In this document: positions 16,319-19,439 of the stretch, piece after piece
Layout: every line of letters begins with the position of its first letter
Position numbering within the stretch: the first letter of the stretch is position 1
NCBI RefSeq assembly: GCF_000633455.1
Contig: NZ_AYMG01000017.1
Location: 124,001-188,000, forward strand
Source: Pedobacter jeongneungensis
Lineage (GTDB): Bacteria; Bacteroidota; Bacteroidia; Sphingobacteriales; Sphingobacteriaceae
Length of the DNA stretch: 64,000 bases
Direction: 5' to 3'
Translations under genes and position numbers: made by a program
Notes under the pieces: generated by a model
What the model was told of the DNA's origin: nothing
The model's input: the letters and a program-made list of their open reading frames with translations, nothing else
Databases searched by the model: none

Positions 16319-17677
16319 ATGGACAAGGCAAAATTTACCAGTCAGTCGCCCATTGTAGTAGGATTGGATATCGGTACTACAAAAATTTGTGTTATCGTTG
16401 GTCGTAGAACACAACACGGTAAGATAGAAATCTTAGGAATAGGCAAGGCAGAATCGGCGGGTGTGACACGTGGAGTGGTTTCTAACATTCAAAAAACCGT
16501 ACAGGGCATTGCTCAAGCAGTTGAAGTAGCAAGCGGACAATCCAATGTAGAAATACAGGTGGTAAATGTGGGTATTGCTGGTCAGCACATTAAGAGCTTA
16601 CAGCACAGAGGAATTTTAACAAGAAGAGAATTAAACAACGAAATCGGTAAAAAAGACATCGATAAGTTGATTGATGATATGTTTAAACTGGTAATGCCAC
16701 CGGGTGAAGAGATCATCCATGTATTGCCACAAGAATTTACCATCGATAACGAACCGGGCATCAAAGATCCGATCGGTATGGCAGGTGTGCGCCTTGAAGC
16801 CAACTTCCATATCATTTCAGGTCAGGTTACCGCGGTAAAAAACATTATTAAATGTGTTAACAATGCAGGACTTCAAACTCAGGATTTAATCCTTGAGCCA
16901 TTGGCTTCTTCTGAATCGGTGTTGAGCGAGGAAGAAAAAGAAGCTGGTATTGCATTGGTTGATATTGGTGGTGGTACTACAGATATTGCCATTTTCCACG
17001 AAGGTATTATCCGCCACACGGCAGTAATTCCTTTTGGTGGCAATAGTGTTACCGAAGATATCAGAGAAGGTTGCTCAGTGATGCGTAACCAGGCTGAATT
17101 ATTAAAAACACGTTTTGGTTCTGCACTTGCTGAGGAGAACAAAGAAAACGAAATCATTTGCGTTCCTGGTCTGCGTGGCCGTGAACCAAAAGAAATTTCG
17201 GTTAAAAACCTGGCCTATGTAATTCAGGCCCGTATGGAAGAAATTATTGAGCACGTGTATTACGAGATCAAATCTTCCGGCTATGAGAAAAAACTGATCG
17301 GTGGTATCGTAATTACCGGTGGAGGTGCTTTGCTGAAACACTTATCGCAGGCAGTAGAATATGTAACTGGCTTAGATTGCCGCATTGGTTATCCGAACGA
17401 GCATTTATCTAAATATGAAGATATGCCTAAAGCCATTTACGATGACCTTAAAAGCCCGATGTATGCAACCAGTGTGGGTTTGTTGATCAAAGGAATCCAG
17501 AAAGCAGAAGAGCTGATCGAAGAAATGAAACAGCCAGGTGTTTTTGTTGAAAAACCAAAAACAGGAAAAGAAAAAGAGAAACGCGGACCAGGTTTGTTCG
17601 ATAAATTACTTGCAAAAACAAGAACATTCATTCAGGATGATATGAATGTAAGTGATGAAGATTACTTAAAAAGTTAA
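16319..17677 (+). CDS. ftsA: cell-division protein FtsA
   Basis: Actin-like ATPase that tethers FtsZ filaments to the membrane. The 452 residues include phosphate-1 loop VVGLDIGTTKICVIVG (about 13-28), the SHS2/1C domain, phosphate-2 ALVDIGGGTTDIAIF (about 212-226), adenosine motif GGIVITGGGALLKHL (about 325) and a C-terminal segment GPGLFDKLLAKTRTFIQDDM that looks like the amphipathic membrane helix. Five bases after ftsQ. The 130-base gap to ftsZ has unusual structure. Confidence 0.97.
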   Translation: MDKAKFTSQSPIVVGLDIGTTKICVIVGRRTQHGKIEILGIGKAESAGVTRGVVSNIQKTVQGIAQAVEVASGQSNVEIQVVNVGIAGQHIKSLQHRGILTRRELNNEIGKKDIDKLIDDMFKLVMPPGEEIIHVLPQEFTIDNEPGIKDPIGMAGVRLEANFHIISGQVTAVKNIIKCVNNAGLQTQDLILEPLASSESVLSEEEKEAGIALVDIGGGTTDIAIFHEGIIRHTAVIPFGGNSVTEDIREGCSVMRNQAELLKTRFGSALAEENKENEIICVPGLRGREPKEISVKNLAYVIQARMEEIIEHVYYEIKSSGYEKKLIGGIVITGGGALLKHLSQAVEYVTGLDCRIGYPNEHLSKYEDMPKAIYDDLKSPMYATSVGLLIKGIQKAEELIEEMKQPGVFVEKPKTGKEKEKRGPGLFDKLLAKTRTFIQDDMNVSDEDYLKS

Positions 17678-17698
17678 TTATTTTTCCACAAAGAAAGA

Positions 17699-17750
17699 GT
17701 TTTCCACATTATTAACACTTGTGGAAAACGTCTGTTGAAAAAGTGTTAAT
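17699..17750 (+). other. interlocked inverted repeats (possible pseudoknot or switch) between ftsA and ftsZ
   Basis: GTTTTCCACA (17699-17708) pairs perfectly with TGTGGAAAAC (17720-17729). ATTAACACTT (17711-17720) pairs perfectly with AAGTGTTAAT (17741-17750). The second pair's left arm lies in the first pair's loop and the first pair's right arm lies in the second's loop, so the two stems either exclude each other or form an H-type pseudoknot. A further TTTTCCACA is at 17682. Whether RNA or a DNA-binding protein uses it is unknown. Confidence 0.6.
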
Positions 17751-17807
17751 ATTACATTGAGTAATGAACAGAATTTAAAAATTTTTAAACAACTGATTCA
17801 TAAAGAT

Positions 17808-19439
17808 ATGCAGTTCGAAATGTTAAAAGATAAGTCTTCAATCATCAAAGTAATTGGTGTTGGAGGCGGTGGCGGCAACGCAGTGAACCATATGTACCTT
17901 TCAGGTATCACTGGTGTGGATTTTATTATTTGTAATACAGATGCCCAGGCTTTGGAATCTAGCCCTATACCTAACAAGGTACAATTAGGCGCTAGTTTAA
18001 CCGAAGGTATGGGGGCTGGTTCTATCCCTGAGGTTGGTAAAAACTCGGCGATAGAAAATATAGATGATATTAAGGCGATGTTAGGTAATACCACCAAAAT
18101 GCTTTTTATTACAGCAGGAATGGGTGGTGGTACCGGTACAGGAGCTTCTCCGATTATTGCCAAAGCCGCTAAAGAACTTGATATTTTAACTGTGGCCATC
18201 ATCACCACGCCATTTTCTTTCGAAGGAAAGAGACGTAGGTTACAAGCTGATGAAGGAATGGAAGAGTTAAAGAAATATGTAGATTCTTACCTGGTGATCT
18301 CTAACGATCGCCTGCGCGAAATTTTCGGAAACTTAACTCTTGGTTCTGCTTTCGGTCAGGCCGATGATATTTTAACAACTGCTGCAAAAGGTATCGCAGA
18401 GATCATTACTGTTCCGGGTTATATCAACGTGGATTTTAAGGATGTGCGTACCGTAATGAAAGATAGTGGTGTAGCCATTATGGGTAGCTTTGCTGCCGAA
18501 GGTGAAGATCGTGCCTTACAGGCAGTAGAAGGCGCTTTAGCTTCTCCACTTTTAAAAGACAATGAAATTGAAGGTGCCCGTTACATTCTATTGAATATCA
18601 GCTCTGGCTTACGTGAAGTAACAATGGATGAAGTTTCGATCATTACCGATTACATCCAGGAAAAAGCAGGCTTATCTGCCGATTTGATCTGGGGTAACTG
18701 TACAGACGAATCTTTGAGTGACAAACTTTCGGTTACCATCATTGCTACCGGATTCCAGACTTCAGAAGAACGCGTAAAAGAAGAAAAAAATAAAAAGAAA
18801 ATATCACTTTTAACACCAGAAGAAGCGCCATTGGTTCGCCCTGTTGAACCTGTAAATTCTTTTATGCAGCCAAAAGAGGTTCCTTCTTATGAGCCTGTTT
18901 TGAAAGTTAAAGAAGAAGTTTCTCAGGCAGATCTTTTTGGTGGAATGTTCAATAAATCTGAAGCTCAAAAAAATCAGGAGCCTGAGAATAATGTGGTTCG
19001 CCATACTTTAATGGAAGAAGAGCCGCAAGTTGAAGAAGCACAGGAAACCGGATTTGAATTTGAGGTAAAACTGGCCGAAACCAATTTTGTGTTCGAAACA
19101 CCAGTAGCTCAGATGCCGCCAATGCCAGAGCCTGAACCAGAAATCGAATTGCCGGTTGTTGGTTTAGACGATGATAAAAGCGACGAATCGATGGAAGAGC
19201 AGCTGAAAAAATCTAAAGAACGTATCTTACGTTTAAAAGATTTAAGCATGAAATTGCGCACCACCAATGGTTTACAAGAACTGGAAAATGAACCTGCTTA
19301 CAAACGTAAGCAAATGCAGTTGCAACAGGTACAGCATTCGTCTGAATCGCAGGTGAGCCGCTTTACTTTAAGCAACGATCAGGATGGCGGTACAGAGATC
19401 AGACCGAACAATTCTTTCTTGCACGATAACGTTGATTAG
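17808..19439 (+). CDS. ftsZ: cell-division GTPase FtsZ
   Basis: Tubulin-like GTPase forming the Z ring. The ATG at 17808 (MQFEMLKDKSSIIKVIGVGG) is taken as start; a TTG at 17757 would add 17 residues and lies 7 bases after the paired repeat region. GTPase domain: VGGGGGNAVNHM (about 17-28) and tubulin signature MGGGTGTGASP (about 104-114). The polymerisation T7 region is VDFKDVRTVM. After about residue 320 comes a ~220-residue acidic linker, longer than in E. coli, and a conserved end ITEIRPNNSFLHDNVD-like peptide (here TEIRPNNSFLHDNVD). A strong terminator follows, closing the dcw operon. Confidence 0.96.
   Translation: MQFEMLKDKSSIIKVIGVGGGGGNAVNHMYLSGITGVDFIICNTDAQALESSPIPNKVQLGASLTEGMGAGSIPEVGKNSAIENIDDIKAMLGNTTKMLFITAGMGGGTGTGASPIIAKAAKELDILTVAIITTPFSFEGKRRRLQADEGMEELKKYVDSYLVISNDRLREIFGNLTLGSAFGQADDILTTAAKGIAEIITVPGYINVDFKDVRTVMKDSGVAIMGSFAAEGEDRALQAVEGALASPLLKDNEIEGARYILLNISSGLREVTMDEVSIITDYIQEKAGLSADLIWGNCTDESLSDKLSVTIIATGFQTSEERVKEEKNKKKISLLTPEEAPLVRPVEPVNSFMQPKEVPSYEPVLKVKEEVSQADLFGGMFNKSEAQKNQEPENNVVRHTLMEEEPQVEEAQETGFEFEVKLAETNFVFETPVAQMPPMPEPEPEIELPVVGLDDDKSDESMEEQLKKSKERILRLKDLSMKLRTTNGLQELENEPAYKRKQMQLQQVQHSSESQVSRFTLSNDQDGGTEIRPNNSFLHDNVD

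Follow-up and report, generated by a model that had tools for sequence, protein, structure and literature searches.

A conserved cluster of likely DnaA boxes ahead of ftsZ in Pedobacter jeongneungensis and other Sphingobacteriaceae

The region immediately ahead of ftsZ in Pedobacter jeongneungensis is likely to be a cluster of binding sites for the replication initiator DnaA and not a folded RNA. Judged from the sequences of the site and its relatives, the cluster is probably an operator that controls the ftsZ promoter, with DnaA as the presumed binder. The window analyzed was a 64,000-nucleotide stretch of contig NZ_AYMG01000017.1, in which the array occupies the intergenic gap between ftsA and ftsZ. 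The identities of both genes were assigned with NCBIfam equivalogs, and the ATG of ftsZ is at 17808-17810. The features of the region, with conservation given for 78 Pedobacter sequences, are as follows:

16319-17677, plus strand: ftsA coding sequence, the upstream gene (TIGR01174, above cutoff, E 6.3e-111)
17682-17690, plus strand: DnaA-like box 1, TTTTCCACA (TTTTCAACA in 33 sequences, TTTTCCACA in 32, TTATCCACA in 11, TTATCAACA in 2, no other form)
17700-17708, plus strand: DnaA-like box 2, TTTTCCACA, which is arm A of the inverted repeats (identical in 77 of 78)
17709-17717, plus strand: weak DnaA-like box 3, TTATTAACA, the 5' part of arm B (TT....ACA retained, middle variable)
17720-17728, minus strand: DnaA-like box 4, TTTTCCACA, which is arm A' (TTTTCCACA in 70 of 78, TTATCCACA in 2 of 78)
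17733-17741, minus strand: DnaA-like box 5, TTTTCAACA (always 4 bp past box 4)
17744-17755, plus strand: TGTTAATATTAC element, overlapping arm B' (98% mean majority identity)
17776-17807, plus strand: conserved untranslated leader of ftsZ (90% mean majority identity)
17808-19439, plus strand: ftsZ coding sequence (TIGR00065, above cutoff, E 8.9e-112)

The 9-mer TTTTCCACA falls within the DnaA-box consensus TTWTNCACA, and three exact copies are found within 47 bp, near the putative promoter. The same 9-mer serves as the mioC (R5) box of E. coli (PMC5835720) and as the oriC box of cyanobacteria (PMC6323995). In total the array contains up to five boxes in the orientation + + + - -, with boxes 2 and 3 directly abutting (0 bp).

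The first-pass annotation had described this region as two interlocked perfect inverted repeats with the geometry of an H-type pseudoknot or a two-state switch. The repeats are real: the arms are exact and follow the order A-B-A'-B'. Arm A and its partner (17699-17708/17720-17729, GTTTTCCACA/TGTGGAAAAC) are 10 bp long, as had been stated, while arm B and its partner (17710-17720/17741-17751) are 11 bp, one longer than the annotated length. That such an arrangement is improbable by chance was also borne out, since only 2 of 60 simulated windows, each 64 kb long and matched in dinucleotide composition, contained an interleaved pair of perfect 10-bp repeats, a count which is itself inflated by shifted versions of single repeats. 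The repeats thus exceed chance, and they are accounted for by repeated, oppositely oriented 9-mers resembling DnaA boxes. The arm A pair consists of two convergent TTTTCCACA copies, and arm B combines weak box 3 with the separate conserved element TGTTAATATTAC. The copy of TTTTCCACA at 17682-17690, which forms a further perfect 10-bp inverted repeat with 17719-17728, was absent from the text of the first-pass annotation.

A pseudoknot or two-state riboswitch in the ftsZ leader is very improbable. The perfect interleaved arms speak for such a structure, and the window RNA folds at z -2.2, though through stem A alone. However, B and A' overlap by one base, 17720, and the full stems are therefore mutually exclusive. 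Pairing within each stem was compared among 37 Pedobacter sequences with pairing to shuffled partners (500 shuffles). Stem A reached 91.6% pairing versus 91.1% in the shuffles, with 132 of 500 shuffles as high, and stem B at 77.7% versus 77.4%, with 198 of 500 as high. Double-sided changes amounted to one pair per stem, equal to the shuffled mean. The only stem that RNAalifold returned was stem A, at 7 pairs; none of these pairs was compensated, and the covariation term was slightly unfavourable. Arm A' has become TGTGGATAA in two loci (L106, L109) and has decayed in four others (L094, L097, L103, L104), and arm A is still TTTTCCACA in these species, so that the pairing is broken and unrepaired. 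Arm B is free to vary, with TTCTTAACA, TTATGAACA, and TTCCAAACA among its many forms, whereas B' hardly changes. Across 78 distinct Pedobacter sequences each arm changes independently and inside the DnaA-box alphabet. No plausible Rfam family was found; the single match, to mir-1422, an animal microRNA family, scored 31 bits where the gathering score is 60. In other words, the arms vary in relatives without compensation in either stem, the outcome that the annotation had itself named as refuting an RNA switch, and this candidate was rejected.

The pattern of conservation follows the boxes. Mean majority identity among the 78 Pedobacter sequences was 0.93-1.00 in boxes 1, 2, 4, and 5 and 0.88 in box 3, versus 0.69-0.75 in the spacers. 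Variation remained within TTWTNMACA in box 1, in box 2 with one exception, and mostly in boxes 4 and 5. Outside box 3, substitutions were almost exclusively T/A at position 3, C/T at position 5, and C/A at position 6. The A at position 6 that is frequent in boxes 1 and 5 (TTTTCAACA) is outside the strict E. coli consensus. Box 5 matched TTWTNMACA in 73 of 78 sequences, 10 of which were strict TTWTNCACA, and box 3 matched TTWTNMACA in 39 of 78 and TTWTNCACA in only 2 of 78. The suggestion that a control site for ftsZ lies here is thus well supported by conservation.

Immediately downstream of the boxes, the TGTTAATATTAC element is probably the core promoter of ftsZ. Its TAATATTAC part is the probable core because it is still present in g26, a genus whose boxes have been lost. 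The Bacteroidota -7 motif is TAnnTTTG (PMC7366714). A perfect match to it is present in some species only, as TACGTTTG or TACATTTG (for example at L049, L055, and L120), and for that reason the element is best called a putative promoter. No intrinsic terminator was found at the site. The conserved leader at 17776-17807 could be a translation-initiation element. A TTG at 17757 is in frame with ftsZ, and 42 of 78 Pedobacter sequences have an open frame back to this point, but the TTG itself is present in only 26 of 78; it is not conserved and is unlikely to be the ftsZ start.

The array was also found beyond Pedobacter. Of 40 loci from 21 further genera of the Sphingobacteriaceae, 34 had two or more boxes, and TTWTCCACA occurred 69 times in the 40 loci versus 0.3 in shuffled sequences. 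In 20 loci from 20 other families of the class, the equivalent 200 bp contained no TTWTCCACA. Spacing was conserved along with the boxes in the other genera of the family: the gap between minus boxes was 4 bp in all 20 such pairs, the gap between plus boxes was 9 or 10 bp in 28 of 33, and the main value between plus and minus boxes was 11 bp. The array was absent from genera g26 (L121, L141), g32 (L127, L147), and g44 (L146). These genera have no boxes at all; the first of them keeps GTAATATTAC, and the other two have small genomes of 1.8-2.3 Mb.

The tandem arrangement of boxes is very specific within the genome. The pattern TGTKGAWAA-N4-TGTKRAWAA has exactly two matches in the 6.7-Mb genome, one at ftsZ (C17:141720) and one at dnaA (C27:10335); the pattern was written after both sites had been seen, and the informative part is the absence of further matches. 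In 40 Pedobacter genomes the tandem pair had 48 matches, made up of 36 at ftsZ by coordinates, 9 at dnaA, and 3 of the ftsZ type from genomes in which ftsZ was not located (G176, G177, G178), while the reversed control pattern had a single match. The dnaA gene is a typical target of DnaA, and the same type of box occurs there: dnaA promoters of 28 Pedobacter genomes contained the same interchangeable variants, TTATCCACA, TTATCAACA, and TTATTAACA. Among the matches listed for convergent TTWTCCACA pairs in 53 genomes of the family, at least 60 in number, 50 were at ftsZ and 10 at scattered sites.

In the P. jeongneungensis genome itself, close TTWTCCACA pairs occurred at three loci only: at ftsZ, near umuDC-like genes, and near hcp-like genes. 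At the second locus a palindromic pair, TTATCCACA-N5-TGTGGATAA (L117:9219-9241, which is C38:223218-223240), lies 56 bp upstream of an operon for an S24 peptidase and a Y-family polymerase, on a contig that carries apparent conjugation genes. At the third, a tandem TTTTCCACA-CC-TTTTCCACA (L119:5659-5678, which is C1:560658-560677) precedes genes for two similar 131-aa proteins, and of these the first matches TssD/Hcp.

A single DnaA is encoded in the genome (PF08299, 101.5 bits), and its box-reading helix is intact. The protein retains the signature GGRDHSTV, and alignment with domain IV of E. coli DnaA (1j1v) showed that R399, R407, D433, H434, and T436 are kept and that T435 is replaced by S. 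Several other Pedobacter genomes (G018, G019, G013, G014, G023, G024) contain three or four full-length DnaA homologues, 81-91% identical to the main DnaA of P. jeongneungensis, and upstream of one such copy in G019 there is a divergent box pair of its own, TGTGGATAA-C-TTATCCACA.

It is conceivable but unlikely that the array is bound by another transcription factor with a DnaA-box-like site that also controls dnaA. A tandem gap of 4 bp and the change from C to A in some boxes depart from E. coli practice and would suit such a factor, but the T/A freedom at position 3 and the retention of TT and ACA fit DnaA, as do the occurrence of the boxes at dnaA and the conserved DNA-binding helix of DnaA.

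Clustered DnaA boxes might also mark the chromosomal replication origin. That the ftsZ array is the origin is extremely improbable given the GC skew of a complete close relative (G027), which was sampled genome-wide and then in detail at 5.30-5.62 Mb. Skew in this genome is positive on both sides of ftsZ, at 0.66 Mb, with no sign change; its turning point is near 5.38 Mb, in the vicinity of a GidA/MnmG-like gene. The ftsZ array is therefore not at the skew minimum, from which it is about 1.6 Mb away, and was rejected as oriC. Around the minimum itself (L208, L209 on G027:C1) are genes resembling nadA/nadB as well as gidA/mnmG. There was no cluster of three strict DnaA boxes within 300 bp at the minimum, and one-mismatch boxes at 5.380 Mb showed a mild excess that is suggestive only. 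Because the minimum is also separated from dnaA by about 0.95 Mb, the origin apparently does not coincide with this gene.

The position of the array also bears on whether the boxes serve chiefly to titrate DnaA or to switch its nucleotide state, in the manner of datA or DARS, without regulating ftsZ. Multi-box clusters are typical of such loci, and E. coli has boxes upstream of ftsZ that do not control ftsZ transcription (PMC8203912). A titration site could be anywhere, however, whereas this cluster is found in the ftsA-ftsZ gap in one genus after another, at a fixed spacing to TAATATTAC, and in the relative about 1.6 Mb separate it from the skew minimum. A role limited to titration or nucleotide switching is thus quite improbable. 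A regulatory function is favoured because the boxes are intergenic, beside a conserved promoter-like element, and family-wide.

The preferred reading is that of a double-stranded DNA operator made up of two or three plus boxes followed by two minus boxes 4 bp apart, just upstream of the conserved putative core promoter of ftsZ in the ftsA-ftsZ gap. DnaA would bind this array cooperatively and regulate ftsZ transcription from a promoter at TAATATTAC, would employ this tandem box pair at the dnaA promoter as well, and FtsZ supply would then follow the level or the ATP/ADP state of DnaA. Activation is judged slightly likelier than repression, since the boxes are upstream of the putative core promoter. 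Both the promoter position and the cell-cycle timing of this control are points that we infer. The 4-bp gap may be a lineage feature of DnaA cooperation because it is identical at dnaA and ftsZ.

A broader proposal, somewhat less probable than an even chance, is that DnaA of the Sphingobacteriaceae has a very small regulon defined by a lineage-specific, 4-bp-spaced tandem box, with ftsZ and dnaA as its two members genome-wide. If this is correct, one operator type hard-wires replication initiation and synthesis of the division protein, and ftsZ is the more strongly conserved target. That the box cluster has been kept throughout the family suggests a direct link between the start of replication and the division protein. 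It has long been asked whether FtsZ supply is under the direct control of replication initiation, and published reports say that it is in Caulobacter and that it is not in the case of the E. coli boxes. An ftsZ operator that is found family-wide, and shared with dnaA and almost nothing else, makes this link directly testable in the Bacteroidota.

The principle that DnaA acts on ftsZ is known from Caulobacter, while the family-wide array, its fixed geometry, and the pairing with dnaA in the Bacteroidota look new; a literature search found no paper on DnaA-controlled division genes in this phylum. In Caulobacter crescentus, DnaA binds the ftsZ promoter in vitro and activates transcription (PMC3193534; PMC8203912). 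The Pedobacter region resembles this system in having DnaA boxes in the ftsZ promoter region, but Caulobacter belongs to a different phylum and has two boxes, whereas Pedobacter has up to five in a fixed + + + - - array that, among the families tested, is confined to the Sphingobacteriaceae. In B. subtilis DnaA is bound in vivo at the ftsL promoter (PMC8203912), which is likewise the promoter of a division gene, though of another gene in another phylum. Three boxes upstream of ftsZ in E. coli are located in ftsQA and were reported to have no role in ftsZ transcription (PMC8203912). Those boxes are inside coding genes, while the Pedobacter boxes are intergenic and next to a conserved promoter-like element. 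Paired boxes at E. coli purH, polA, mutH/DARS2, and mioC are bound by DnaA upstream of regulated genes (PMC11317965), and in this respect the Pedobacter pairs are similar. The E. coli double boxes require a gap of 2-3 bp, and binding is lost when 1 bp is added (PMC11317965); in Pedobacter the minus pair is always 4 bp apart and boxes 2 and 3 are separated by 0 bp, so the 4-bp gap at both ftsZ and dnaA sets these sites apart from the E. coli type.
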